Below are positions 12,416 to 26,702 of a stretch of 64,000 nt of DNA, piece after piece. Origin of the DNA: an uncultured Caulobacterales bacterium (GTDB lineage: Bacteria; Pseudomonadota; Alphaproteobacteria; Caulobacterales; Caulobacteraceae); contig CAIOYC010000003.1 in NCBI GenBank assembly GCA_903862425.1, positions 93,021-157,020 of the forward strand, read 5' to 3'. The position numbers and the translations under genes are program-made. The first letter of the stretch is position 1. Each line of letters opens with the position of its first letter. The notes below the pieces were generated by a model, which did not search any database, was not told where the DNA came from, and was given only the letters and a program-made list of their open reading frames with translations.

Positions 12416-12504
12416 TTTCCGATACAGGTGCCTCTACTGTATCGGAAACTACCATTGATGGCATTTTCGATACGATCTAGAATCGAGCTTGGTTTTCGAT
12501 ACAG
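12416..12504. promoter_or_regulatory. res-like / operator array of four recombinase half-sites
   Basis: Immediately before the serine recombinase gene lies a perfect 12-bp inverted repeat, TTTCCGATACAG (12416-12427) and CTGTATCGGAAA (12437-12448), with a 9-base centre. Two further direct copies of the same half-site follow: TTTTCGATACG (12464-12474) and TTTTCGATACAG (12493-12504). Multiple dyad and half-site copies directly upstream of the start are typical of resolution sites (res) that double as operators for their own resolvase. The last copy ends 8 bases before the start codon, so binding would also repress translation or transcription. Confidence 0.7.
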
Positions 12505-12512
12505 GTCGCAAA

Positions 12513-13097
12513 ATGACGAGGGCCTTCGCTTACTGCCGAGTGTCTACAGCCGAGCAAACCAACGACAACCAGTTGGGCGAGATCGTGGCTGCAGGCTTCA
12601 CCATTGACGAACGCAGGGTGGTTGCTGAGCAAATATCGGGGTCGGTCGCAGCAAGCCTTCGCCCCCAATTCGCCAGGCTGGTTGATCGGCTCGAAACTGG
12701 CGACGTTTTAATCGTCACGAAGCTGGATCGCCTCGGGCGAAACGCGATGGATGTACGCACCACCGTGGAGGGGTTAGCGGCAGGCGGAATACGTGTGCAT
12801 TGCTTGGCCCTGGGAGGTGTCGATCTTACATCGCCCGCCGGAAAGATGACCATGCAAGTGATAGCCGCCGTTGCGGAGTTCGAGCGGGACCTCCTCATCG
12901 AGCGAACACAATCGGGCCTAAAGAGAGCTAAAAGCCAAGGCAAGAAGCTTGGACGACCAATGGTCTTAAACGCTAAGCAGCAGGCAGAGATTGCCCTCAA
13001 ACGTCGAGGTGGGGCCTCCCTTGGGGCTTTGGCAAATGAGTACGGCGTGAACCGTTCGGCAATTCAGCGAGCGGTAAAACGGCCCGCTTGCCGTTGA
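12513..13097 (+). CDS. Serine recombinase (resolvase/invertase family)
   Basis: A 194-residue small serine recombinase. The start at ATG 12513 is preferred over an in-frame TTG at 12489 because it begins with the family's MTRAFAYCRVST, where Ser11 is the nucleophile. TKLDRLGRN, EFERDLLIERT and the C-terminal helix-turn-helix (GALANEYGVNRSAIQRAVK) follow. It would catalyse site-specific resolution or inversion at the repeat array upstream. The last five residues (RPACR) are read from the antisense of an IS6-family remnant, so the original C-terminus was replaced at an insertion junction near 13080. The DNA-binding HTH is intact up to that point, so activity is plausible. Confidence 0.88.
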   Translation: MTRAFAYCRVSTAEQTNDNQLGEIVAAGFTIDERRVVAEQISGSVAASLRPQFARLVDRLETGDVLIVTKLDRLGRNAMDVRTTVEGLAAGGIRVHCLALGGVDLTSPAGKMTMQVIAAVAEFERDLLIERTQSGLKRAKSQGKKLGRPMVLNAKQQAEIALKRRGGASLGALANEYGVNRSAIQRAVKRPACR

Positions 13098-13366
13098 TTC
13101 GGACGAAGACCTCGTCCAAGTGCCAGCGCCAGTAGGTGAACTGGCGCATGCGATCCACCCGCCTACGCGGATTTCGGCGGCGAACATGGGCCGAACCGGT
13201 TCCACCATAGCCGGACCGTCTCGTGGCAAATATCGATGCCGCGCTCGAACAGCAGGTCCTCAACATTGCGCAGCGACAGCGGGTAGCCAACGTACATCAT
13301 CACCACCAGCCGGATCGCCTCGGGCGATGAGTTGAAGTAGCGAAACGGGTCGGTCGAGCGGGCCAT
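13083..13366 (-). pseudogene. IS6-family transposase remnant, frameshifted and truncated
   Basis: From ATG 13366 the frame gives an IS6-family N-terminus: DPFRYFNSSPEAIRLVVMMYVGYPLSLRNVEDLLFERGIDICHETVRLWWNRFGP. The continuation is scattered over the other two frames: PMFAAEIR (around 13190), then RRRVDRMRQFTYWRWHLDEVFVRINGKRA down to about 13083. There are thus at least two frameshifts, and about 60 percent of a 235-residue transposase is lost at the junction with the serine recombinase. The sequence GGGTACTGTTACTCAAACTT (minus strand, 13420-13401) upstream may be the surviving terminal inverted repeat. The gene is inactive. Confidence 0.8.
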
Positions 13367-13520: not shown

Positions 13521-13913
13521 TCAATTCGTACGATTGCGAAATTCAGTTATAACTCTAAGAATGAAAAACCAAGACAGTGAAATTGAAACTGGATATATTG
13601 TTGCCAAATACCCTCTACCTATAGAAATGTAAATGCCACATAAAATTAAAGACCAGATAAGCGCATATGCTGTATAAATTAATCTTCCTTGATTGCCGCG
13701 CGTCATATAAAGAGCTAACATGCTTGGCGCCCCAACAAATAATATTATCAACGGCAATGACAAAAAAGAAAATACTATAGATATTAAAAACCATGATAAT
13801 GGGTCGTTGTTAAGTGGAGTTGATACAACTTGAAATAATTCCGTTATAAAAACGGATGATGCGGCAGACCCAGCGCTACCAAATATAACATCATTTAAAG
13901 AAATACGAAGCAT
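13521..13913 (-). CDS. AT-rich polytopic membrane protein, candidate immunity protein to the RHS tip
   Basis: About 130 residues from ATG 13913 (an in-frame TTG at 13925 would add four). Three or four hydrophobic segments are visible (WFLISIVFSFLSLPLIILFVGA; LIYTAYALIWSLILCGIYISI; LATIYPVSISLSWFFILRV). The gene begins about 13 bases after the RHS stop on the same strand and is strikingly AT-rich, like the 3' end of the RHS gene and unlike the GC-rich RHS core. In polymorphic toxin systems the gene directly behind the toxin tip normally encodes its immunity protein. A membrane immunity protein would suggest a toxin acting at or across the inner membrane. The function is inference from position and composition. 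Confidence 0.5.
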   Translation of the reverse strand: MLRISLNDVIFGSAGSAASSVFITELFQVVSTPLNNDPLSWFLISIVFSFLSLPLIILFVGAPSMLALYMTRGNQGRLIYTAYALIWSLILCGIYISIGRGYLATIYPVSISLSWFFILRVITEFRNRTN

Positions 13914-13925
13914 AAACCCATCCAA

Positions 13926-16900
13926 TTAATTTTTGGCCGTAGCGCACCCGGGCACTTGCTTGGCGATAGCAGAAGCCATTTGTGCGTCTAACGACTGAAA
14001 TAGCCCAGGACCCGCAGCTTGGTTGACCTGATTTAGCGCTACATTGCCGCCGGCACCAACGCCGTGTGTATCAATCACCCAGCTCCCACCAGAAATCGTA
14101 GCCGTGCGCGTAATGGATCCGACAAAAACATGTTCACTTGTTGTCTGGTTTTTTACCGATAGTCCGGCGTCTGAGATAGTCGTTTTGACGAATCCACCTG
14201 GTTCAAGAATTCCTAAATTTGGACTTGATGCGAAGTTATTTGAGTTATTGCTAACTGCGGTTCCTCCCATCCCAGGCACCGCATATTTTGCCATAAATTG
14301 GGCCATCTGCGTCTTTGATAAGGCAGAAGCGTTATTGCAAACATTATCTTTCTGGTCGTAATCATGGGTGCCGTCCGAATTATTCAGCAAATCTAATACT
14401 GCATTAACTGAAGTTGAGAATGCATTTTTCAATGCATTTAGAAAACTAGGGTCTAGTAAGATAATCTGATAGTTTGTTGGTTTTTTTGCAGTAACTGTTA
14501 TACAATTGGGGTCCCCTGCGCATGGGTCGCCGTCAAGGCCAAGAGAATCCCATCCATTAACTGGATCGTTATGGATATAGGGGTAGAAGTTTAGCCCGTC
14601 ACCGTAGCCGATGGGGTCGGACTGCATGAACCTTCCGAGTATGGGATTATAGGCGCGGGCCTTGTAGTGGAACAGGCCCTCCTCGGGAATCCACATCTGG
14701 CCGGTGTACTGGAACCGACCGGCGTTCGCCGAGCCCGGCACGCCGTATTCGTCATAGGTGTTGACCGCCGTGGCGTTGCCTGAGCCATCGGTCACCGCTA
14801 CCACTGAGCCGAGGCGATCGGCCACCAGCCAGCGCCGGTCGCTGGTCCCCGAGCCCTCGTACCAGACGATGGGCTCGTCTCCAGCGGGACCGTGCACGTA
14901 CCGGCGCAACACCGAGCCGTAGGCGTCGTACTCGGCGATCATGGCTTGGCCGTCATAGGCGAAGGCGGTATTGGCTGAGCCCGTAGTGATCAGCAGGCGC
15001 CCCAGCGGATCGTAGGTCATCGTATTCGAGCCCGCCGAGGTCAGGTTGTTATAGACGTCGTAGCCGTAGCTGGTGGTCCCGTCCGAGGTCAGGTTTCCCT
15101 TCGCGTCGTAGCTCAACGTCGCCGAGCCTGCGCTGGTCAGCTGGTTGCGTCCGTTTACCCCATAGCTGCGGCTCACCGCCGTCAGGCTGGGGGTGTAGGC
15201 CGTGTTGCTCCCCGAAAGGCTGTTCACCTGTCCGCCCGCATTGTAGCCGATGCTCTGACTGAGATCCCCCGTCGTCCCCGACAGGTCATGGCTGAGTGAG
15301 GTCAGTCGATCCGCGTAGTCGAACCCATAGCTGGTCGAGGTCCCATTGCCCCGGCTCAGGCCCGTTCGGCGGCCAAGGTCGTCATAGCTATAGGTCGCGA
15401 GGGTGGTGGAGGTGGAGTCCGTGATCGTGGTGACCTCATTGGCTAGGTCATAGCCATAGGTGACGTAGAAGCTATCCGGCCAGGTCATCGAAGTTCGCCG
15501 GCCAGCGGCGTCGTAGCCGTAGTTGACGGTGCCGAACACTGAACCCTCGCTCGTCTTCCTGCCAAGGGCGTCATAGCCGATGGAGATGGTGTAGGGTGAG
15601 AGAGCGACCGATGTTACCCGGTTCAGATTGTCATAGCCGATGCTTTCGCCGCGAAGGCCCGTCGTTTGCCGGTTCAGCAAATCATAGCTGAGCGAGATGG
15701 TCGTGCCGTCACGCCGTCGCAAGGAGGTCAGGTTGGAGGCCGCGTCATACCCGTATTGCTCATAGTCCGCGGTGTTGCTGGTCCCCGCGCTGGTGGGCGA
15801 GGGGTATTGGACCTGCGAGACCCGGTCGAACCCGTCATAGACATTGGTGGTCTTGTTGCCGTTGGCGTCGGTGACCGTAAGCTGCTTGCCGTTGGCGCTG
15901 TAGGTCAGCGTCCCTTCGGTGTGGGCCGAACCAGAGGCGTAGCCGGTGGTCACGCTGGTGAGTTGGTTGGCGGCGTCATAGCCGTTACGGCTGATGCGAT
16001 CCGGGCCATCCGATCCGGTGGTCGCCAGGCTGCACGCGTCCGGCAGCGACCCGAAGGTGGCGGCGTTCAGACGCACGGCCGTGCAGTCGAGTCGGTTAGC
16101 GGCGTCATAGCTATATTGAGTCACCGCATAGGTGGTCGAGCCACCCCCGTCCTGCAGGCTCTCGATGGTCTTGCGGCCTAGGCTATCATAGCCCGCGGTG
16201 TGCCGTTCTAACACGCTCATGGCCGACCAGTCGCTGTCCGACTGGCTGTTGACCGAGCCGCGCTCCACCAGCGTCACCTGGCCATCGCCGTTATAGGTGT
16301 AACGAACCGCGCGGTTGTGCAGGGGGCCGCCGCCATCCGGATCGGGGCCGATGACGCCGATGACCTCGTTGTCCCCATCGTAGCGAAGACGGGTTGTGTC
16401 GTCCGAACCCGACAGAGGACCGTCGACCGTGATCAGGTTGCCGACGTTATCGTAGCCCAATCCAGTGGTCGAGACGACGCTGTAATCGCCAGCGCGCTGC
16501 GTAACCGATGTTGGCAGCAGGTTATTGGCCACTCCCGACGTACCGTAGTCCGTAGAGTACAGAGTCTGGTTAGCTGCCGCTCCGCAAGACGTACCCGTAC
16601 CCGTGTCGCACTCAAAACTTAAAGTCAGACGATAGACGGGGCTCGGCGCCGCCGCGATCGCTCCGGCGCTGTTCTTGTAATAGGCGTTAAGTGCAGAATA
16701 GACGTAATATCCCTGCGGTCGCGCCCCGCCGCTATAGGGTGCAGGCGCACTCATGCCGAGCAGGACGCCATAAGTCGCGTCGTAGGCATAGTCCGTCTGG
16801 TTGCCGTTGGCGTCGCGCGTCCAGTTCGGTTGATTGCAGGTCTTGGGGTTGCCGCAACTGGCGTCGTAGCCGGCGGAGGTGGTGATATTGCCGAGCCCCG

Positions 16901-18194
16901 ACCCATATTTAGCCACCTGGGTCACGCTCGTCACATTGCCCCGCCCGTCATAGGCAATCGCAGCGTAATTGCCCTCCGGTTGAGCGACGCTGGTTACGCG
17001 CCCATAGCCGTCATAGCCGTAGCTGGTGGTTTGGCCGTTGCCGTCGGTCGAATAGACCATTTGCCCGGTCGTCGGGCTCGTCGCGACAGTATGGGTGTGG
17101 GAAAGCGGATCGGTGATGCTGACCGTGGCGTTGCCACCCCCGTCGGTGGAATAGCCATAATAGGTCGTGCCCGCCGCATCCGTCACCGTCGAGAGCTGCG
17201 ACCCCGAATAGGCCAATGTCACGTTGTCGGTAGACGGGCTGGTTGGGCGGCGAAGCCCAGTGATGTGGCCGCTACCGTCATAGCTATAGCGCCACACCCG
17301 TCCCATCGTGTCCGTGTTGGTGGAATAGCCGCTGCCATAGCTATAGCTGGCGCTCGGCCAAGTCACGCTCAGGCTGGCGCAGTGATCGATCGCCGGATCG
17401 CAATAATCCACCGCCAGATTGATGCCAGAGACCTTGGCGATGGTCTGCCAGCTGCCCGCGCTCGCCGCATCGGCCGGAGCGCCGTCCGTGGCGTATTCTA
17501 GCTTCAGCATGTAGCCGAGATTGTTCGCCGCCGACTGTAAACGCGAGGCGCTTACATAGCCGCTGCACGCGCCTGCGCTCGGCGAGCACAGTCCCGTCAC
17601 TGTCGAATAGGTATAGGCGGTGGTCTCTCCGGTGGGCGCCGTGCTGGTCGTGATGAGCCCGTCCTTGGCGTCGATCCCGACCTGTGTCCCCAGGTTCTTG
17701 TCGAACAGCATCACCGTGCCGTTCGAGGTGGTGTAGGTATAGATGTGCGAACCATCGAAGGTCAGGGTTGAACCGATGGCCTGATTGGACGTGTAGGTCC
17801 CGCCCGAGAGGGTGAAGCTCTCGGCGAAACTGCCGAGACTGACCGTGTAGACCCCCGCGCCGTCGTCGGTAATCGTGCCCGTCAGATTGTCGCGCCAACC
17901 GGTCCCCAGGAAGTAGCGGATATAGGCCAGCCCGCCCGACCCCACCGGGCCGACCGACACATCCTTGGTCGTCGTCGTATACGTGCCGGAGGTCAGATAA
18001 GCGGCGCCTGAAAACCCCGCGCCGGTCCCAGCGCCGCCGCCTGTGGTCGGAACAGTCGGAACCTGAGATTGAAATCTTTGCGCGAGCGCCGGCTCTGCGA
18101 GGCAGGCTGCGAAGGCCAAGGCGAGTCCGGATACACCTAACCATCGCCAAGCAGACAATTTACCCGCTTTAGTAGCGAAAACCGCCCGACCCAT
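13926..18194 (-). CDS. Exported RHS/YD-repeat protein with variable C-terminal tip
   Basis: 1422 residues from ATG 18194, chosen because AGGGAG lies about 9 bases upstream; an in-frame start at 18257 is possible. Residues 1-38 form a long Sec signal peptide (WRWLGVSGLALAFAACLAEPALA). The body carries dozens of YD repeats of the form YDxxGRxTS and ends in the RHS core signature (RYVHGPAGDEP, AYNPILGRFMQSDPIGYGDGLNFYPYIHNDPVNGWDSLGL). The roughly 202 residues after this are a distinct tip encoded by AT-rich DNA (13926 to about 14534) with Asn-rich stretches and a late SWVIDTHGVGAGGN segment. I recognise no toxin family. RHS shells encapsulate and release such tips. No PAAR or VgrG linker is present, so export is Sec-dependent, not obviously T6SS. 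Confidence 0.85.
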   Translation of the reverse strand: MGRAVFATKAGKLSAWRWLGVSGLALAFAACLAEPALAQRFQSQVPTVPTTGGGAGTGAGFSGAAYLTSGTYTTTTKDVSVGPVGSGGLAYIRYFLGTGWRDNLTGTITDDGAGVYTVSLGSFAESFTLSGGTYTSNQAIGSTLTFDGSHIYTYTTSNGTVMLFDKNLGTQVGIDAKDGLITTSTAPTGETTAYTYSTVTGLCSPSAGACSGYVSASRLQSAANNLGYMLKLEYATDGAPADAASAGSWQTIAKVSGINLAVDYCDPAIDHCASLSVTWPSASYSYGSGYSTNTDTMGRVWRYSYDGSGHITGLRRPTSPSTDNVTLAYSGSQLSTVTDAAGTTYYGYSTDGGGNATVSITDPLSHTHTVATSPTTGQMVYSTDGNGQTTSYGYDGYGRVTSVAQPEGNYAAIAYDGRGNVTSVTQVAKYGSGLGNITTSAGYDASCGNPKTCNQPNWTRDANGNQTDYAYDATYGVLLGMSAPAPYSGGARPQGYYVYSALNAYYKNSAGAIAAAPSPVYRLTLSFECDTGTGTSCGAAANQTLYSTDYGTSGVANNLLPTSVTQRAGDYSVVSTTGLGYDNVGNLITVDGPLSGSDDTTRLRYDGDNEVIGVIGPDPDGGGPLHNRAVRYTYNGDGQVTLVERGSVNSQSDSDWSAMSVLERHTAGYDSLGRKTIESLQDGGGSTTYAVTQYSYDAANRLDCTAVRLNAATFGSLPDACSLATTGSDGPDRISRNGYDAANQLTSVTTGYASGSAHTEGTLTYSANGKQLTVTDANGNKTTNVYDGFDRVSQVQYPSPTSAGTSNTADYEQYGYDAASNLTSLRRRDGTTISLSYDLLNRQTTGLRGESIGYDNLNRVTSVALSPYTISIGYDALGRKTSEGSVFGTVNYGYDAAGRRTSMTWPDSFYVTYGYDLANEVTTITDSTSTTLATYSYDDLGRRTGLSRGNGTSTSYGFDYADRLTSLSHDLSGTTGDLSQSIGYNAGGQVNSLSGSNTAYTPSLTAVSRSYGVNGRNQLTSAGSATLSYDAKGNLTSDGTTSYGYDVYNNLTSAGSNTMTYDPLGRLLITTGSANTAFAYDGQAMIAEYDAYGSVLRRYVHGPAGDEPIVWYEGSGTSDRRWLVADRLGSVVAVTDGSGNATAVNTYDEYGVPGSANAGRFQYTGQMWIPEEGLFHYKARAYNPILGRFMQSDPIGYGDGLNFYPYIHNDPVNGWDSLGLDGDPCAGDPNCITVTAKKPTNYQIILLDPSFLNALKNAFSTSVNAVLDLLNNSDGTHDYDQKDNVCNNASALSKTQMAQFMAKYAVPGMGGTAVSNNSNNFASSPNLGILEPGGFVKTTISDAGLSVKNQTTSEHVFVGSITRTATISGGSWVIDTHGVGAGGNVALNQVNQAAGPGLFQSLDAQMASAIAKQVPGCATAKN

Positions 18195-18375
18195 CGCCTG
18201 CTCCCTGACGTAGCCCACCGTCAGGTTGTGCGAAGCTTTTTGATCGCGCAACCCCAAAAAGATTCATTTTTGCCGCTAGACTAACCTATGGAGGCATGTC
18301 TAACTTTCGGGAGACTTGGAGATTGGCCAACCGCTCTATTTCAGGTTGGTAATGATTTAGGGGGCGTGGATCGAC

Positions 18376-18897
18376 ATGGCTAAGGCTGTCCTTACCCTGT
18401 GCTGTGGCGTCCTTGCAGCTTTGGCCTTGCCCGCTAGCGTGTTCGCCGACTCCGTCAGCTATACCTACGACGTGTTCGGCCGTGTTGTAACGGCGACCTA
18501 CTCCAGCGGTGCGACGGTGACCTACACCTACGACGCCGCCGGCAATCGCACGGCCAAAAACGTCAGCACCGGCGGGAGCAGCGCGCTATCAGCCTCGGTC
18601 AGCGGAACCTACTACAGCCTCTACCGCGCCCGCGCAGGGACACCGTCCAAGGGCCCGGCCATCACCTGTTCGGGGGCGGGGGGAACCGCGCCCTACAGTT
18701 ATTCATGGGAGTATCAAAGCGGCGACACCGGCTTCACCGCAGACTCGCCCACGTCAAACTCCACCCAATGGTCTCATCCGCTCGGCACGATTGGAGAGTT
18801 TTACGGGTACTGGCGCTGTAAGGTCACCGATGCCACGAGCGCCGTGGCCTATAGTGAGACTATTACCTTGGATTACCTCCATGATAACGGCTTGTGA
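18376..18897 (+). CDS. Small secreted protein with YD repeats and an Ig-like domain
   Basis: 173 residues with a signal peptide (MAKAVLTLCCGVLAALALPASVFA). Right after the cleavage site come two YD repeats (YTYDVFGRVVTATYSSG and YTYDAAGNRTAKNVS), the same repeat type as in the divergent RHS gene. A single beta-rich domain of about 100 residues follows (PYSYSWEYQSGDTG...GYWRCKVTDATSAVAYSETITL) resembling PKD/Ig-like folds. It lies 119 bases from ATG 18376 to the nearest RHS codon and about 150 bases upstream of virB2 in the same direction. It could be a stub of an RHS-like gene or an accessory surface protein. No immunity or toxin motif is visible. Confidence 0.65.
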   Translation: MAKAVLTLCCGVLAALALPASVFADSVSYTYDVFGRVVTATYSSGATVTYTYDAAGNRTAKNVSTGGSSALSASVSGTYYSLYRARAGTPSKGPAITCSGAGGTAPYSYSWEYQSGDTGFTADSPTSNSTQWSHPLGTIGEFYGYWRCKVTDATSAVAYSETITLDYLHDNGL

Positions 18898-19049
18898 GTC
18901 GCCGCAGGACCGATTTTGGTCTGTTGAAAGCGTCTGCACGGCGCTGGACAGGCCGCAACCTCCGCTGCATTCTTGCCGCCGGTGGGATCGCCTTTAGACA
19001 GCAACGCTGGGGTCTAGAATGGTGATCGAACACAGAGTGGAAGTGAGTG

Positions 19050-19367
19050 ATGCGTAGGCGGGGTGTCGAAGCGGGACTGTTGAGTCTAGTCCTTGGAGCG
19101 GCGGCGAGCGCCGCACAAGCCCAGCAGACCTATGCCGATCCTGCCGGCTCTGGCGCTATCGTGGGGGCGGTGCATTGGGTGCAAGGCACGCTGCTCGGGA
19201 CAGTCGCGACCGTCGTCGCCGTGATTGCCGTCGCTTCCGTTGGCTACATGATGCTTACCGGGCGAATGAACTGGCGATATGGCGCCACCGTCATTCTCGG
19301 CTGCTTCATTCTCTTCGGCGCAGCCAGCATCGTCGGCGGTATCCAGGCCGCGGCGGGCGGCGGCTGA
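19050..19367 (+). CDS. virB2: VirB2/TrbC-type T4SS pilin
   Basis: 105 residues from ATG 19050 (a GTG lies immediately before it). It has a basic N-terminus, a signal peptide cleaving near AAQAQQ, and two hydrophobic helices (GTVATVVAVIAVASVGYMML and YGATVILGCFILFGAASIVGGI) separated by the short polar TGRMNWR loop. This is the classic cyclic or linear VirB2 pilin architecture. VirB2 forms the pilus or conduit of type IV secretion systems. It is the first gene of the virB operon, three bases before virB3. Confidence 0.88.
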   Translation: MRRRGVEAGLLSLVLGAAASAAQAQQTYADPAGSGAIVGAVHWVQGTLLGTVATVVAVIAVASVGYMMLTGRMNWRYGATVILGCFILFGAASIVGGIQAAAGGG

Positions 19368-19370
19368 GGC

Positions 19371-19655
19371 ATGAGCTCGCTGGACCGAGATCTGGTGTTT
19401 ACCGGGCTGACCCGTCCGCAGACCTTCGGGGGCGTCACCTACAGCGTCGTGATCCTAAACGTGATCGTCACCACCGAACTCTTTTTGATCTTCAAATCGC
19501 CCTTGGTGCTGCTCGGCGCATTTGTGTTTCATGGCGTCGGATGGCTGGCCTGCCTTCGCGATCCGCGCATTTTCGATATCTGGCTGGTAAAAGTTTCGCG
19601 CTGTCCACGCGTGCGAACGTGGTCGATCTGGCGATGCAATTCCTACCGCGCCTGA
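19371..19655 (+). CDS. virB3: VirB3, T4SS inner-membrane component
   Basis: 94 residues with the VirB3 pattern: DLVFTGLTRPQTFGGVTYSVVILNVIVTTELFLIF, two close membrane segments, then DPRIFDIWLVKVSRCPRVRTWSIWRCNSYRA, where the RIFDLW-like and terminal CNSY motifs are family hallmarks. VirB3 associates with the VirB4 ATPase at the inner membrane. It overlaps virB4 by 22 bases. Confidence 0.9.
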   Translation: MSSLDRDLVFTGLTRPQTFGGVTYSVVILNVIVTTELFLIFKSPLVLLGAFVFHGVGWLACLRDPRIFDIWLVKVSRCPRVRTWSIWRCNSYRA

Positions 19656-22021
19656 GCACCGACCAAGACGCGTGGCGTAAAGAGCCCAGCGCCGGGAGCC
19701 GGCTTCCCTATCTGGCCCAGATCGACGAGGAGACCGTGCTTCTGCGCGACGGTCGCCTGATGCAAGTGCTGCAACTCGATGGACTGCTGTTCGAGACGGC
19801 CGACACAGACGAGCTGAACTATCGCAAGCGTCTCAGGGATGCGACCTTGCGGGCGCTCGGGTCGTCTCGGTTCGCCCTCTACCACCATGTGATCCGCCGC
19901 CGCGTTCAGCCGATCTTACGCGATACCTTCCCAGACCCGTTCAGCGCCGAACTCGACGCGGTCTGGACCAAGCGCTTCCAAACCAAGGAGTTGTTCCGCA
20001 ACGACATCTATATCACCCTCATCCGTCGCCCCCTCCAGGGCACGAGCGGGTGGGCGGCGCGCCTCGCGCGCCTGGTGGGTCGTCAGAGGAAGGAGCCCGA
20101 TGCGGACCTCGCGCTCGACCGCCGCGAGTTGAAGGCCGCGCGCGATACCCTCGTCGCGGCGATGGGTTCGTATGGTCCCCGCGTTTTGCGCTCATACGAG
20201 CGGGACGGCGTTCTTTTCTCCGAGCAATCTGAGTTTCTTGCCAGTCTCTACAACGGAGAGGAACGGTCGATCCGATTGCCGGAAGGCGATCTTGGCGAAC
20301 ACCTGCCCATTCGGCGGGTTAGCTTCGGGCAACAGACCGTCGAGCTAGCACCCGTGGGCGATGTTCCGCGCACTTTTGTCGGCATCGTTTCCGCCAAGGA
20401 CTATCCAGGGCTCACCACCCCGGGGATGCTCGACGATCTGCTGCGGTTGCCGGTGGAACTCACCATCAGCCAGAGTTTCGCCTTCGTTGATCGCCAAGCC
20501 GCCCTCGGACGGGTCAATCTGGCGCTTCGCCGGATGCGCGCCGCGGACGATGAGGCCGTGAGCCTGCGCGCCGAACTTGGAACCGCCCGCGACGAGCTTG
20601 CCGCCGGGCGCGCCGCGTTCGGCGAGCATCATCTGAGCATCGCCGTTCAGACCAGTGACCAAACGGCCTTGAACGATGGCATCGCCGAGGTGCAGGCCGT
20701 GCTGACCGACCTTGGCATCATTGCCGTGCGCGAGGACCTGGGTCTTGAGCCGGCGTTCTGGGCGCAATTTCCGGGGAACGGCCAGTTCATCACACGGCGT
20801 GCGCTGGTGGGCAGCCGCAACTTCGCCAGCTTCGCATCGAGCCACAATTTTCCGGTGGGACAGGCCGATGCAAATCACTGGGGTTCGGCAGTGTCCGTCT
20901 TGGAGACAACCGCCGCCGGCCCCTACTTCTTCAATTTCCACCGCGCCGATCTTGGCAACTTCACCATCATCGGTCCCTCCGGTTCCGGCAAAACCGTGGT
21001 GCTCAATTTCCTGCTTGCGCAAGCGCAGCGCTTCTCACCGCGCACGGTCTTCTTCGATAAGGACCGGGGTGGCGAGCTTTTTATTCGCGCCATCGGCGGG
21101 CGCTACGACATCCTACGGCCGGGAGAACCTTCCGGCCTCAACCCACTCAGGATGGAGGACACGCCCGCCAATCGGCGTTTCCTGATCGAATGGCTAACCA
21201 GTCTCCTCAGCCCCTATGGACCGCCACTGACATCGGACGAGCTCGCGCGCATCGAGGATGCGGTGGACGCCAACTTCGCCGCGCCCATCAGCCTCCGGCG
21301 CCTGCGCACCTTCGCCGCCCTCCTTCGCGGCCGTGAACGGCCGAGCGAGGATGATCTTTATTCCCGATTACGGGTCTGGTGGGGCTCTGGAGAACGCGCG
21401 TGGCTCTTCGATAATGCCGACGATCTGACCGATCCTTCAGAGCGCGTGGTCGGTTTTGACATGACGCGGCTGCTCGACGACCCCACCGCACGAACACCGG
21501 CGATGATGTATCTTTTCCACCGGATCGAAGAGCGCCTCGATGGCTCGCCAGCCATTATCGTCATCGACGAAGGCTGGAAGGCGCTCGATGACGAGGTGTT
21601 CGTCCAGCGGATCAAGGATTGGGAAAAGACCATTCGCAAACGCAATGGTCTCGTCGGCTTCGTCACCCAAAGCGCGGAGGACGCGCTGCAAAGCAAGATC
21701 GCCTCAGCCGTCGTGGAGCAGGCGGCGACCCAAATCTTCATGTCGAACCCAAAAGCCCAGGCGAGAGACTACGTCGATGGTTTCGGGCTGAGCGAGCATG
21801 AGTTTGAACTCGTCCGAACCCTTCCCGATAGCGAGCACTGCTTTCTCATCAAGCATGGCCGCGAAAGCGTGGTCGCGCGCCTGAATCTTTCCGGTGAGAA
21901 CCAGCTACTCGCTATCCTCTCGGGACGCGAACGGATTGTTCGTCTTCTCGATGAGATCCGCGGGCGGGTCGGGGACAAGCCCTCCGCCTGGATGGGCGAG
22001 CTTCTGGAGCGCGCCTCGTGA
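19634..22021 (+). CDS. virB4: VirB4, T4SS ATPase
   Basis: 795 residues from ATG 19634 (MQFLPRLSTDQDAWRKEPSAG). The frame is open further upstream but that part is a shadow of virB2/virB3. The N-terminal CagE/TrbE/VirB domain precedes a AAA-type motor with Walker A (FTIIGPSGSGKTVVLNF), Walker B (AIIVIDEGWKALDD) and the RKRNGLVGFVTQS region with an SAED motif. It energises pilus assembly and substrate transport at the inner membrane. Its length is typical. Its stop overlaps the virB6 GTG start. Confidence 0.93.
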   Translation: MQFLPRLSTDQDAWRKEPSAGSRLPYLAQIDEETVLLRDGRLMQVLQLDGLLFETADTDELNYRKRLRDATLRALGSSRFALYHHVIRRRVQPILRDTFPDPFSAELDAVWTKRFQTKELFRNDIYITLIRRPLQGTSGWAARLARLVGRQRKEPDADLALDRRELKAARDTLVAAMGSYGPRVLRSYERDGVLFSEQSEFLASLYNGEERSIRLPEGDLGEHLPIRRVSFGQQTVELAPVGDVPRTFVGIVSAKDYPGLTTPGMLDDLLRLPVELTISQSFAFVDRQAALGRVNLALRRMRAADDEAVSLRAELGTARDELAAGRAAFGEHHLSIAVQTSDQTALNDGIAEVQAVLTDLGIIAVREDLGLEPAFWAQFPGNGQFITRRALVGSRNFASFASSHNFPVGQADANHWGSAVSVLETTAAGPYFFNFHRADLGNFTIIGPSGSGKTVVLNFLLAQAQRFSPRTVFFDKDRGGELFIRAIGGRYDILRPGEPSGLNPLRMEDTPANRRFLIEWLTSLLSPYGPPLTSDELARIEDAVDANFAAPISLRRLRTFAALLRGRERPSEDDLYSRLRVWWGSGERAWLFDNADDLTDPSERVVGFDMTRLLDDPTARTPAMMYLFHRIEERLDGSPAIIVIDEGWKALDDEVFVQRIKDWEKTIRKRNGLVGFVTQSAEDALQSKIASAVVEQAATQIFMSNPKAQARDYVDGFGLSEHEFELVRTLPDSEHCFLIKHGRESVVARLNLSGENQLLAILSGRERIVRLLDEIRGRVGDKPSAWMGELLERAS

Positions 22022-23235
22022 CCGAAGCCTGCGCCCTGCCGACCGCATCCCCCACTATCGCCGCGCAACTGGCGGCCTATGCCGATTGTCACGCTCGTCT
22101 TCTTGGCCATAGCGGCTTTGATGGAGTCCTCGGACACCTTCTGCTGCCGACGCTGCTGACCAGCCTGCTTACAATCTACGTCGCCCTGATCGGCTATCGT
22201 TTGCTGCTGGGTCAGGCTTTCGATCTCCGCAACGCCGTGCTTGCCGCCTTGCGGCTCGGCATCGTCATCGCCCTGGCGACGAGTTGGCCGACCTTTGAAA
22301 CCTTGATTTATCGCGTCTCGATTGAGGGGCCAGCGGAGATAGCAGCGGTGGCTGTGACCGGCTCCGACATTGAGCCGTCGAGCGCCGAAGACGCTGCTGG
22401 CAGGCTCCAGCGCGTCTATGATGTCGCCAACGCCGCCGCCCGAGAAAACCAACCCGTATCCGCGCCGACCCCAGGCTTGGTCACGACGGGCATTCCACCG
22501 CAAAGCCGTCAAACAGCCGAGACGCTTAAACCGCTCAACCTGTCCGGCATCCTGCTGTTTGGCGCCTCGGTGGGGCCGCTCGTCGCTGTGAGGCTCGCCG
22601 CCGGCGTGCTTCTGGCTTTCGGCCCGCTTTTCATCGCGCTGGCTTTGTTCGACACCACGCTCGGCTTTGCCGTGGGGTGGCTGAGAGCGCTTGCCGCCCT
22701 CATGCTGGCGGGGGCGGGCGTCAGCATCGTGGTGGGACTCGAACTGCGTTTCCTGGAGGCTGCGCTCGCGGCAGCGGGAGCCGACCCAGCAGCCATGGCC
22801 AGCCTTGCCAGTCGCGGCCTCATGCTCGGTGCGCTTCTTTTCGGCGCTACCACCTTGGCGGTGCTTTGGGCGTCTGCTTTCGTAGCAGGGCGGTTCAACA
22901 TCAAATTGGAACGCTTGACCGCGCTTGCAGCCGCACCGTTGCGTCACGCGCCTGAAGTGGCGCGGGCCACCTCGTCAGTGGTGGTGAGCCGGACTGAAGA
23001 CCTTGAGCCGCCGTCACGGGCACGCGCCATAGCCGGCGCGGTGTCCGCCATCGGCCAGCGGGAGCGCGAGGCGTTGCCGCACGTGTTCGGTGAAACCGCC
23101 TCCAACAGCGGTAGCTTCCGCATTCAGGCCGTCACCGAACCCTTCTTGTTCGCTTCGTCTTCCGAAGGGGTAGGACCAAACCGGTCCACGATTGCTCGCC
23201 GATCCGGCAGCGCCAAAAGGCGGGACGTCCGATGA
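22018..23235 (+). CDS. virB6: VirB6/TrbL-type T4SS polytopic membrane protein
   Basis: 405 residues from a GTG start overlapping the virB4 stop by 4 bases. Several transmembrane segments are seen (LLLPTLLTSLLTIYVALIGYRLLL; AVLAALRLGIVIALATSW; LAAGVLLAFGPLFIALALF; ALAALMLAGAGVSIVVGL; MLGALLFGATTLAVLWASAFVAG). A central periplasmic region at about 100-165 and a hydrophilic tail complete it. VirB6 forms the inner-membrane pore region. The gap where virB5 normally sits (between virB4 and virB6) does not exist here. Confidence 0.85.
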   Translation: MTEACALPTASPTIAAQLAAYADCHARLLGHSGFDGVLGHLLLPTLLTSLLTIYVALIGYRLLLGQAFDLRNAVLAALRLGIVIALATSWPTFETLIYRVSIEGPAEIAAVAVTGSDIEPSSAEDAAGRLQRVYDVANAAARENQPVSAPTPGLVTTGIPPQSRQTAETLKPLNLSGILLFGASVGPLVAVRLAAGVLLAFGPLFIALALFDTTLGFAVGWLRALAALMLAGAGVSIVVGLELRFLEAALAAAGADPAAMASLASRGLMLGALLFGATTLAVLWASAFVAGRFNIKLERLTALAAAPLRHAPEVARATSSVVVSRTEDLEPPSRARAIAGAVSAIGQREREALPHVFGETASNSGSFRIQAVTEPFLFASSSEGVGPNRSTIARRSGSAKRRDVR

Positions 23236-23984
23236 CCGAACGCCAAGATGGCTATTTCGAGAAGGCAAGCTCTTGGGCGGCCGATCAGCAGGGCATGCTG
23301 CGTGCGCTGCTGCGAACCTGGCGCATCATCGCGGTGCTGGCCATCTTCGTCGCCATCCTCGAAGGGGTCGCGTTGATCCTTTTGACCCCGCTGAAGACGG
23401 TGACCCCAATCCCGATCTTGGTGGATCGCCAGACCGGTTATGTGCAGGCGCTCAACGACAAGGGCCAGGTCGAGATACGCGCCAATCAAGCCCTCACTCA
23501 AGCGCTGCTCGCTCAGTATGTGATCGCGCGAGAGGGCTTCGATATCGCAACGGCGCCTTCGGACTATCGCAACGTTGCGCTCTGGTCGTCGGGCGAGGCC
23601 AAGCGCGAATATCTGACGCTCATGCCTGCCTCGAACGTGCAAAGCCCGCTCAATCGCTACGGCCGGTCGGCAATCGTCGATGCCACGATCCGTAGCGTCT
23701 CCCCTCTCGGCCCCGACACGGCGCTCGTCCGCTACGACACCCGCACACGCTACCAGGATGGGCGCGCCAGCCAAGTCGCCAACTGGGCGGCCATCGTCGC
23801 TTATCGCTTCTCCAACGACCCCATGGCGTTCGCTGATCGACTGACCAACCCGCTCGGCTTCCAGGTCGTCCGCTATCATACGAGCCCCGAAACGATAGCG
23901 CCGGTGGAGCCGGATAAGCCCGAACTTCCGGCTTCGGCAGCCCCCACGCTGGCGACCGATGTGGGATCGGGCGCGCATCAATGA
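23232..23984 (+). CDS. virB8: VirB8, T4SS assembly scaffold
   Basis: 250 residues: a cytoplasmic N-terminus, one transmembrane helix (about 31-52, IIAVLAIFVAILEGVALILL), and a periplasmic NTF2-like domain. Its signature NPLGF (TNPLGFQVVRY) is near the end of the domain. It bridges the inner-membrane and core complexes. It overlaps both neighbours by 4 bases. Confidence 0.92.
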   Translation: MTERQDGYFEKASSWAADQQGMLRALLRTWRIIAVLAIFVAILEGVALILLTPLKTVTPIPILVDRQTGYVQALNDKGQVEIRANQALTQALLAQYVIAREGFDIATAPSDYRNVALWSSGEAKREYLTLMPASNVQSPLNRYGRSAIVDATIRSVSPLGPDTALVRYDTRTRYQDGRASQVANWAAIVAYRFSNDPMAFADRLTNPLGFQVVRYHTSPETIAPVEPDKPELPASAAPTLATDVGSGAHQ

Positions 23985-24679
23985 GGTGCGTTACCGTCCT
24001 CTGTGTCGCCCTTGCGCTTGTGGCGACACCGGCCGTCTCGGCCGTCACCCCCAAGCCCGGCGGGGGCGATCCTCGCATTCAAACCATCGAGTACGATCCG
24101 CATCAGGTCGTCACCTTGCGCGTGCCGCTCGGCTATGCGCTGACCTTGGAGTTCGCGGCTGACGAACGCATCGAAAACGTCGTCGTCGGTAACAGCGCCG
24201 TCTGGCAGGTCATTCCGAACAAGGCCGCCGACCATCTGTTCGTCAAGCCGATGCAAAGCGGCCTCGACACCAACATGACGGTCATCACCAGTGGTCGGAT
24301 CTACTATTTCGACATGAAACCTCTGCCGAGCGCAGACCCCAACGCGGCGTTCGCGGTCCGCTTCATCTACCCCACGAGCCCGTCATTGCCGCCGGCGGTG
24401 GCGAAGGTGGAGGCGTCGTCCTATCGTCTCACCGGTTCTCGCGCCCTCAAACCCATGACCATGAGCGACGATGGCCGCTCCACTTCGATGATCTGGCCGG
24501 CTAAGACGGCGATCCCAGCCGTCTTTGTGATCGACGCGCAAGGGCGTGAAGCCCTCGTCAATGGCGAGATGCGCGACGGGCGCTACGTGGTGGATCAGAT
24601 CGCCGACCAATTCATCTTTCGGATCGGCGGCGAAGAAGCCCGGGCCAACCGGCGCATCCTGAAGGAACGGCCACGGTGA
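23981..24679 (+). CDS. virB9: VirB9, T4SS outer-membrane core component
   Basis: 232 residues with a Sec signal peptide (CVTVLCVALALVATPAVSAV), then the VirB9/CagX/TrbG domain (VTLRVPLGYALTLEFAADERIENVVVGNSAVWQV; LFVKPMQSGLDTNMTVITSGRIYYFDM), a linker, and a C-terminal domain (PAVFVIDAQGREALVNGEMRDGRYVVDQIADQFIFRIG) that lines the outer-membrane core. VirB7, the lipoprotein partner that usually pairs with VirB9, is not encoded in the operon. Confidence 0.92.
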   Translation: MRCVTVLCVALALVATPAVSAVTPKPGGGDPRIQTIEYDPHQVVTLRVPLGYALTLEFAADERIENVVVGNSAVWQVIPNKAADHLFVKPMQSGLDTNMTVITSGRIYYFDMKPLPSADPNAAFAVRFIYPTSPSLPPAVAKVEASSYRLTGSRALKPMTMSDDGRSTSMIWPAKTAIPAVFVIDAQGREALVNGEMRDGRYVVDQIADQFIFRIGGEEARANRRILKERPR

Positions 24680-25746
24680 CTGACCGACCGCAGCAAGGAC
24701 GGCCGATTGTGAGTGCGCAGCCTACGCCAGACGACGTTCGGCCCGTTTCTGAGCTGCCGCGCAGCGGTCCGCCGCCGATTGTCGTAATTGCAGGTTTCGC
24801 GCTTCTGGCCGTCCTTCTGTTTTTCGTCCTCGAAGGGCGTCGGCATGAAGCCGCCCACCCAAAAATGCAGCGCGTCGAAACTAGCGCTCCACTGATCACC
24901 TCGCCGCCGCCCCTGGTAATACCGTCGCCGCCTCCACCCCCCGTGCCGGAGGTGCAAAAGCCGCCGCCGCCCCTGCCGCCACAGATCAAATACATCGAAC
25001 GGCCCGCGCCCCCTGCGCCACCTCCGATCATCCGATACATCGAAAGGCCGGCGCCCGCCGTTCCGCAAGCATCACCCACGAACCTGGGGCGACTGTCGGA
25101 ATCGCCGCTAGTCATCGATCTTGCCGAAGCAGCGGCGGATGGCAAAAGCGCGCCGGCTGAAGAAGCGGCTGCGCGCGCGTCGGTATTGCGCAACCGCTCT
25201 TTCCTGGTTCCTCAAGGCACGCTCGTCACCGCCGTGCTTGAAACGCCCGTCGATACGTCGCGCCCTGGCCCGGTTCGCGCGTTGACCTCCACCGACACGC
25301 GCGGGTTCGATGGAACGCGGGTATTGATCCCACGCGGCAGCCGCTTGGTCGGCGAGACCAAGGCCGACACCCAAGCGGGGCAGCGCCGCGTGCTGATCAC
25401 CTGGAACCGGCTGGTGCGCCCCGACGGTGTGGCGGTTCGGTTGGTTTCTCCCGCATCGGACCCCGTGGGCGGAACGGGCGTCCCGGGGCATGTCGATGAT
25501 CACCTCCTGGCCCGCCTAAGTGGGGTCATTCTCCAATCGGTGTTGACCGTGGGCGTCAATCTCGCATCGAGGCCAAGCAATGGCGGGGTGGTCGTCGCGG
25601 TGCCGAGCCAGGCCCTCTCGGGCGCCGGGCAGACCCTTGTTCCGACCCAGGATCAAAAGCCAACCATCACGGTGAAGGAAGGGACGCCCATCAGCATCTT
25701 CGTGGTGCGCGATCTGGATTTCACTGGGACGCTGCAACGCCAATGA
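24676..25746 (+). CDS. virB10: VirB10/TrbI, T4SS core energy transducer
   Basis: 356 residues from a GTG start overlapping virB9 by 4 bases. The layout is a cytoplasmic N-terminus, one transmembrane helix (about 34-53, PIVVIAGFALLAVLLFFVLEG), a long proline-rich periplasmic arm (PPPPPVPEVQKPPPP and two IKYIERPAP-type repeats), then the TrbI/VirB10 beta-barrel domain (NRSFLVPQGTLVTAVLETPVDT, GFDGTRVLIPRGSRLVGE). It spans both membranes and gates the outer channel. Confidence 0.93.
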   Translation: MTDRPQQGRPIVSAQPTPDDVRPVSELPRSGPPPIVVIAGFALLAVLLFFVLEGRRHEAAHPKMQRVETSAPLITSPPPLVIPSPPPPPVPEVQKPPPPLPPQIKYIERPAPPAPPPIIRYIERPAPAVPQASPTNLGRLSESPLVIDLAEAAADGKSAPAEEAAARASVLRNRSFLVPQGTLVTAVLETPVDTSRPGPVRALTSTDTRGFDGTRVLIPRGSRLVGETKADTQAGQRRVLITWNRLVRPDGVAVRLVSPASDPVGGTGVPGHVDDHLLARLSGVILQSVLTVGVNLASRPSNGGVVVAVPSQALSGAGQTLVPTQDQKPTITVKEGTPISIFVVRDLDFTGTLQRQ

Positions 25747-26702
25747 ACGCGCCGGCGAGTTATCTGGACTTCTATCTTGGGCCGCTGGCGGCCTACCTCG
25801 CGCGACCCGAAGTCACCGACATCTATATCAACAAACCGTGCGAGGTGTGGATCGAGAGCTTGGGCGGCGAGATCGAACGATACGAGGAGCCATCACTGGA
25901 TGAACCGCACCTGTGGCGGTTGGCCCAGCAGATTGCGAGCCATGCCCACCAGGGCATAAGCCGGAAACATCCGCTCCTCAGTGCGTCCCTCGCCGACGGC
26001 TCGCGCGTGCAGGTGGTCGCAGCGCCGGCCACCCGCGCAGGCGTGGCGATAGCGATCCGCCGCCATGCGGCGCAGAAACCATCGCTTCAGAGCTATGCAG
26101 AAACAGGCGCGACCAGTGAGCGGGTCAGCAACGGCCGTGGCGAATTGGAAGCACTCATCGAAGCGCGGGACTATCCGGCCTTCTTGGCCCTCGCCGTGCG
26201 ACAGCGGCTCAACATCGTCATCTCCGGCGGCACCTCGTCCGGCAAAACCACGCTCCTCAACGCCCTCATTGACGAAATTCCCTCCCATGAGCGTCTCGTC
26301 CTGATCGAAGACACGCCCGAGCTTCGACTGTCCCAGCCGAACAGCGTCGGGCTGGTTGCGGTGCGAGACGCGCAGGGGGAAGCTCAAGTCACTGCGGAAG
26401 ACTTACTCCAAGCATCGCTTCGTATGCGGCCGGATCGGATCATCCTCGGCGAGCTGCGCGGGCCAGAAGCGTTCACGTTTCTCCGGGCTATCAATACAGG
26501 ACACCCAGGGTCTCTGACCACGGTGCACGCTGACGATCCTGAGCGAGCTATCGTACAGCTTGCAATGATGACGATTCAGGCGCGCCATGGCTTATCGTTT
26601 AGTGATGCTACAGTTCTCGTCGAACGTATGGTCGATGCAGTGGTCCAAGTTAAACGCGATCGGGAGCGTCGAACAATTTCCAGGATTCGGTTTTGTCCGT
26701 GA
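25743..26702 (+). CDS. virB11: VirB11, T4SS traffic ATPase
   Basis: 319 residues of the PulE/VirB11 hexameric ATPase family. Motifs in order: Walker A ISGGTSSGKTTLLNAL, Asp box LIEDTPELRLSQ, Walker B RIILGELRGPEAF and His box GHPGSLTTVHADDPERA. It drives substrate and pilus-assembly switching with VirB4. It is the last gene of the operon, overlapping virB10 by 4 bases. No virD4 follows: the next 120 bases are non-coding and then the opposite-strand dinB ends. Confidence 0.93.
   Translation: MNAPASYLDFYLGPLAAYLARPEVTDIYINKPCEVWIESLGGEIERYEEPSLDEPHLWRLAQQIASHAHQGISRKHPLLSASLADGSRVQVVAAPATRAGVAIAIRRHAAQKPSLQSYAETGATSERVSNGRGELEALIEARDYPAFLALAVRQRLNIVISGGTSSGKTTLLNALIDEIPSHERLVLIEDTPELRLSQPNSVGLVAVRDAQGEAQVTAEDLLQASLRMRPDRIILGELRGPEAFTFLRAINTGHPGSLTTVHADDPERAIVQLAMMTIQARHGLSFSDATVLVERMVDAVVQVKRDRERRTISRIRFCP

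Follow-up and report, generated by a model that had tools for sequence, protein, structure and literature searches.

A predicted helix-grip tip on an RHS protein of an uncultured Caulobacterales bacterium, with a membrane-protein partner: a candidate envelope toxin and its immunity

According to PMC5821083, colicin M is a lipid II-cleaving domain whose immunity proteins (the Cmi, PmiA and PmiB/BmiA proteins) are either anchored periplasmic proteins or membrane proteins of three to four segments, show essentially no sequence conservation, and are encoded up- or downstream of the toxin; the ColM motif DXYDX5HR is also on record there in the degenerate form HXYDX5FK. The Lipocone paper (PMC12419801) describes a START-domain-like toxin domain of helix-grip fold within a polymorphic toxin, with transmembrane or lipoprotein immunity. 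Here we analysed a 64,000-nucleotide stretch of an uncultured Caulobacterales bacterium (family Caulobacteraceae; GCA_903862425.1, contig CAIOYC010000003.1, positions 93,021 to 157,020 of the forward strand; hereafter the window) in which an RHS gene ends in a variable tip and is followed by a gene for a small membrane protein. A sequence-only reading of the window had proposed these as a polymorphic toxin with cognate immunity. The architecture, the exchange of the tip and the partner gene all support the proposal, and we consider the toxin-immunity nature of the pair highly likely. Our main reading is more specific, namely that the exchangeable tip, of predicted helix-grip fold, is a toxin against bacteria whose target, a lipid or a molecule linked to one, lies at the outer face of the inner membrane, and that a membrane protein serves as immunity; we give this reading a probability of about 0.6. 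It draws on a computed tip family of 16 loci, other tips on related cores, an envelope partner throughout and a fold match by two models.

Matches to RHS/YD repeats (PF05593, E 1.7e-40) and to the Rhs-associated core end (TIGR03696, Rhs_assc_core) were confirmed in the window's protein, whose open reading frame (13926-18257, minus strand) encodes 1443 residues from a TTG at 18257 or 1422 from an ATG at 18194. This gene gave the only Rhs_assc_core match in the source genome (G000, 42 contigs). Since the core match ends at residue 1241, the tip of about 202 residues expected behind it occupies residues 1242-1443. A signal peptide was seen by eye at the N-terminus and the Pfam scan gave RHS repeats only, with no PAAR domain, both as the sequence-only reading had described. 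Signal-peptide-like N-termini were likewise seen by eye in eight of nine related RHS proteins, the ninth (L090) being ambiguous. The tip, said to match no known toxin family, indeed matched no family in Pfam, NCBIfam, PHROGs or PADLOC, and a protein search with the tip region of the RHS protein returned only itself. PDB sequence searches with the tip family reached best E-values of 3.7 and 0.48, plasmid and phage records gave no tip relative or only E 6, none of 41 pattern matches from a viral_contigs scan with the A4 profile pattern was a tip relative, and BFVD yielded nothing for the tip at E<=0.001. A PADLOC match to Csn2 (E 0.023, in one of 15 members) and the PHROGs matches of the tip family (E 0.15 or higher) were judged to be chance. 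The tip domain family is absent from the curated libraries searched.

Relatives of the tip were found in other genomes. When 398 genomes of the order were searched in six frames, 74 had matches at E<=1, nearly all of them noise; three credible distant relatives were retained (L003, E 1.4e-18; L004, 1.6e-11; L005, 1.3e-6) and the remaining rows were taken as chance. Profiles made from these three matched 9 of 398 genomes in the window's order (its own included, with L050 and L051 later dropped), 4 of 385 genomes of the class (again including its own) and 7 of 61 genomes in the order of genome G729 (one, L040, later dropped), while a phylum-wide sample of 398 genomes gave the family in the window's own genome only. 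One further locus, L076, came to light while RHS control loci were examined (E 1.2e-21 against a profile built without it). A protein search with the nine-row profile A6, under length limits that left full-length RHS proteins outside, returned four proteins, whose sources are Rhodospirillales, Kiloniella and a metagenome, and a pattern scan of named genomes yielded only tip loci already known. Candidates L006 (E 1.3e-4), L040 (0.008) and L051 (0.0065) were unmatched by the refined profile and were dropped, and L050 was excluded as marginal (E 3.4e-5).

The family comprises 16 loci: the window, L003, L004, L005, L023, L024, L025, L036, L037, L038, L039, L047, L048, L049, L052 and L076. Counts below are given on 13 loci, with the phage-like and mutually alike L025 and L036-L038 taken as one. 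Not all loci are independent genomes; L003 and L052 share a genome (G004), and L005 and L047 a genus. The window's tip shares 19-31% identity with its relatives in a 15-row alignment (A7), the closest being L003 (31%), L023 (29%) and L004 (27%). Other members include L024 in Denitrobaculum tricleocarpae, L039 in a Rhodospirillales metagenome-assembled genome, and L037, whose protein is also found in Kiloniella spongiae. The gene at L024 (1066-2670) encodes the tip domain and, behind it, a Hint-like stretch (matches to Hint families of Pfam under their cut-off, E ~6e-5) and has its membrane gene upstream; a large divergent gene farther out resembles a peptidase/ABC transporter, by eye only. In L025/L031, L036, L037 and L038 a 192-residue membrane gene precedes a 276-residue toxin-domain protein, and a nearby gene matches the internal virion protein family phrog_418 (E 6.5e-11); judged from sequence, these loci may be a phage-like carrier of the pair.

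The helix-grip fold, in which a curved antiparallel sheet grips a long C-terminal helix, was matched by two predicted models, one of the window's tip and one of another member, and on these models the tip very probably has a START/Bet v 1-like fold. Its predicted order of strand, helix, curved antiparallel sheet and long C-terminal helix is that of the START/Bet v 1/polyketide cyclase fold, also called SRPBCC, and the tip differs in having no sequence match to the Pfam families of that fold. Since 15 members searched against Pfam at E<=10 matched no family of the helix-grip fold, the likeness to START and Bet v 1, as to the structural matches, is one of fold only. All rows of the 15-row alignment share H59, P89, N131, T133, G141 and G162, and H137 and R145 are nearly invariant; a 12-row alignment that leaves out the window, L003, L004 and L023 has H, P, N, T, H, G, V and G invariant at the corresponding places. 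The polar residues among them lead us to lean towards an enzyme over a lipid binder or extractor.

The membrane gene starts at a TTG (13925), 0 bases behind the tip's TAA, or at an in-frame ATG 12 bases behind it, and ends at 13521. Its earlier description as a three- to four-segment protein was a fair one, as hydropathy gave two segments at the strict setting and three at a looser one. A protein search with it found no homologue. An envelope-type partner (predicted membrane or exported) stands beside the tip in all 13 loci and a soluble partner in none. Nine partners are polytopic, located downstream in the window, L005, L047, L048, L049, L052 and L076 and upstream in L024 and the L025 group, while the four in L003, L004, L023 and L039 are lipoprotein-like, carry a signal peptide or are N-terminally anchored, and all lie downstream. 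Among the 11 downstream partners, that of L023 starts 36 (TTG) or 114 (ATG) bases behind the tip, and the listed starts of the others overlap the tip or lie at most 20 bases away. Two tandem paralogous genes of periplasmic type follow the single tip of L004 (328-894 and 995-1486; phmmer E ~1e-33), as if a spare immunity copy were kept. The occurrence of the same tip without the membrane gene, which the sequence-only reading would have counted against the pair, was found in the letter at 4 of the 13 loci, but an envelope-type partner stands there in all four; similarly, tip and downstream gene do not strictly swap together, but the kind of partner is kept. By analogy, we read the change of partner as a swap of immunity proteins of the kind reported for colicin M, and not as a refutation. 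The window's membrane gene is likely the immunity protein of the tip.

A partner in the envelope could also be an indirect protector, or a mere neighbour, of a tip that works in the cytoplasm as a helix-grip enzyme or ligand sequesterer. The titles of the structural matches include cyclases and soluble-ligand receptors, and envelope-type neighbours are common beside RHS tips, since the same hydropathy rule found at least one segment in the next genes of 17 of 25 other RHS tips. From this proportion, RHS toxins directed at the envelope may be common in Caulobacteraceae. We nevertheless consider a cytoplasmic tip unlikely, given that soluble partners are missing from all 13 loci and that the partner's start overlaps or closely trails the tip's stop in most of them. 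Polytopic partners in 9 of the 13 loci would also suit a pore-forming or ionophoric tip that inserts in the inner membrane and depolarises it, a small polytopic protein being the usual immunity for pore formers. Rhs pore-forming toxins are known (Tse5, by the listing of PMC10684867), and four-segment immunity is rather linked to pore formers in PMC5821083. The tip, however, has no hydrophobic segment at the setting used, its predicted alpha+beta helix-grip fold carries a polar invariant motif, and anchored, lipo- or exported partners stand in four loci, all of which make a pore former improbable.

The tip is exchanged on related RHS cores. Searched at E<=1e-20 against 149 genomes of the family, the 400 core residues before the tip had matches in 43, and related cores (hits at E<=1e-50) were 39-59% identical. 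Thirty core loci were fetched, of which two carry the tip family (L053, the window itself, and L076), 24 carry 25 other tips, and four (L058, L068, L069 and L070) have no recognisable end. Distinct other tips total 28, including one from L094 and two from L095, and 25 of these have a next gene in range; five tip-family entries were set aside from this comparison set. As related cores carry other tips, the shell is shared and the tip is a module on it. Outside RHS proteins the domain is present in the Hint-like fusion (L024) and the phage-like locus (L025), so that the idea of a conserved extension of the shell fails. Short RHS-end frames in L003 (222 codons), L005 (281), L047 (289) and L049 (288) keep tip and partner and look like displaced cassettes. 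A non-toxic tip serving as a lipid-binding structural or adhesive extension would fit the helix-grip as a binding fold, and toxin activity is predicted only, but the other tips on related shells, the domain without RHS and these short frames, so like displaced toxin-immunity cassettes, make it very unlikely.

The tip and the next gene, described as equally AT-rich, are both compositional outliers but not equally so (about 46% against 35%), with guanine-plus-cytosine (GC) contents of 0.458 and 0.346, compared with 0.624 for the RHS core and 0.600 for the whole window. The 1014-bp stretch 13521..14534 (GC 0.413) lies 3.7 standard deviations below the mean of the window's 1014-bp stretches, in the lowest 0.1%. 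A GC drop from core to tip to partner was also observed in L005, L048 and L052; in L047 there is no such drop from the tip (0.585) to the partner (0.610). That a foreign AT-rich stretch happens to prolong the RHS frame by chance, as the low GC, a nearby IS6-type remnant and the lack of homologues in the first protein searches might suggest, is refuted by the relatives in other genomes (E to 1.4e-18), which sit in the same place behind RHS core ends.

Beyond the computed results, our main reading includes steps that we infer, from Sec export and delivery by the shell to arrival in the target envelope, the residue site and the action of immunity. The RHS protein would be exported by Sec, and its shell would take the tip to a neighbouring cell, where it would arrive in the periplasm or membrane. 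By strand order, the conserved His, Asn, Thr, His and Arg would meet at one end of the sheet, and this polar site may bind or alter a lipid head group with the tail in the helix-grip cavity. The immunity protein would stop the tip's action within the producer's own envelope; a toxin that crosses and acts in the producer's own periplasm would need an antidote in the envelope, and the partners look so. We think that the tip probably acts on the cell envelope, the earlier term "membrane- or periplasm-acting" being itself inferred. A lipid or lipid-linked molecule as its target, suggested by analogy, is a tentative proposal to which we give slightly less than even odds. Rather unlikely, in our estimate, is a START-type fold turned catalytic envelope toxin, in which the cavity would hold a lipid tail and the His-Asn-Thr-His-Arg site would cut or disable the head group; within that version the target lipid would plausibly be an undecaprenyl-linked cell-wall precursor.

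Several points weigh against the main reading. The fold alone shows no function, and cyclases as well as binders of soluble ligands occur among helix-grip proteins; the alignments behind the two models have 11 rows in common; and the lipid target is drawn from analogy. The relatives closest to the window's tip (L003, L023 and L004) have the non-polytopic kind of partner. Enrichment of envelope-type partners is modest (13 of 13 against 17 of 25, one-sided Fisher p=0.022, the test having been chosen after the loci were seen; p=0.036 when restricted to the 11 downstream loci), and a threshold of two or more segments gives 10 of 13, with the partner of L023 included, against 11 of 25. Among 15 partner proteins, a set that included the later dropped L006, sequence matches are limited to L052/L076 and the two L004 paralogues, so that no immunity family backs the immunity call. 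As to delivery, Pfam found no PAAR, and the type IV secretion system (T4SS) genes next door were not found beside the relatives' RHS genes.

Features of the window are given in the table. The VirB-type T4SS operon starts 149 bases behind the small RHS-repeat gene. A tblastn search with the window's VirB relatives found no match in 26 loci of 5.9-20 kb (18 fetched around RHS genes and 8 of tip relatives or discarded candidates), and the adjacency of the T4SS looks incidental; the RHS protein may still use that system. The small RHS-repeat protein had tblastn matches in 10 of the 18 loci L083-L100, several just upstream of the RHS gene, some of which may be RHS repeats themselves; it is possibly a companion of Sec-exported RHS proteins. 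The IS6-type transposase remnant between the membrane gene and the resolvase gene has 73.5-80% DNA identity to annotated IS6 transposases among the matches listed (best 6 of 38 records).

Table. Positions of the RHS gene, its parts and neighbouring features in the window
Feature	Position	Strand	Remarks
Resolvase gene	12489-13097	+	
IS6-type transposase remnant	~13087-13349	-	
Predicted 3-4 segment membrane protein, likely immunity	13521..13913	-	130 aa from ATG 13913; 134 aa from TTG 13925
RHS protein	13926..18194	-	1422 aa from ATG; 13 RHS-repeat stretches
Variable C-terminal tip	13929..14534	-	202 aa; GC 0.46; outside Pfam, NCBIfam, PHROGs and PADLOC families
Predicted helix-grip (START/Bet v 1-like) domain	13947..14378	-	~residues 55-198 of the 204-residue stretch starting at 14540
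Rhs_assc_core end of shell (TIGR03696)	14535..14756	-	residues 1168-1241, E 8.4e-19
Predicted Sec signal peptide	18078..18194	-	39 residues ending ...AEPALAQ; by eye
Small exported-type RHS-repeat protein	18376..18897	+	divergent from the RHS gene
VirB-type T4SS operon	19047-26702	+	relatives of VirB2, B4, B6, B8, B9, B10 and B11 by Pfam

On our main reading, RHS weapons gain a toxin-type domain of a lipid-binding-type fold that is missing from the curated libraries searched, one tip family is served by interchangeable membrane and anchored or lipoprotein partners, and it becomes testable whether a helix-grip domain attacks envelope lipids. Caulobacteraceae RHS proteins with predicted Sec signals carry a varied set of tips (28 others in the loci read). 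Antibiotics target the lipid carriers of the cell wall, so that a protein domain that evolved to attack them would be a useful tool.

The window's protein shares with RHS polymorphic toxins the repeats, the Rhs_assc_core end, a variable tip, a small gene behind it and short displaced tip frames, and differs in a tip outside the curated libraries searched, a predicted Sec signal peptide and the absence of PAAR. A search of the open-access literature found, among the papers listed, no START, SRPBCC or helix-grip toxin paper besides PMC12419801. The START-like toxin in that paper is the nearest precedent for a helix-grip fold in a toxin; a helix-grip toxin tip (predicted in the window) and envelope-type (transmembrane or lipoprotein) immunity are common to both systems, compared here by description only, but the architecture differs, with an RHS tip and a polytopic partner in the window. 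The N-terminal Cystatin-like domain of the Cystatin-linked START-like toxin described there was not found in the window's RHS protein, where Pfam gave RHS repeats only and the N-terminus is signal-peptide-like. With regard to BamE-like anchored immunity, the window's partner is polytopic, and a Pfam sequence search gave no BamE family for those of L003, L004, L023 and L039.

Judged by sequence, the tip falls outside the ColM domains, as the ColM profile PF14859 matched none of 15 members at E<=10 and the motif DXYDX5HR is missing: HDYD stands at the invariant His in the window, and HR or FK five residues on occurs in none of the 15 rows of A7. Colicin M was not among the best 50 matches listed in either VIA list, which excludes nothing. 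In the arrangement of tip and partner, colicin M as described in PMC5821083 would nonetheless be the closest parallel, with one toxin domain and several unrelated envelope immunity proteins encoded up- or downstream. This parallel, together with the START-like toxin precedent, suggests reading the tip as a toxin of the envelope, where it would bind or alter a lipid or a molecule linked to one. Were the catalytic version true, the tip would be a second, structurally unrelated answer to colicin M, carried on a Sec-exported RHS protein, a Hint-like fusion and a phage-like locus.
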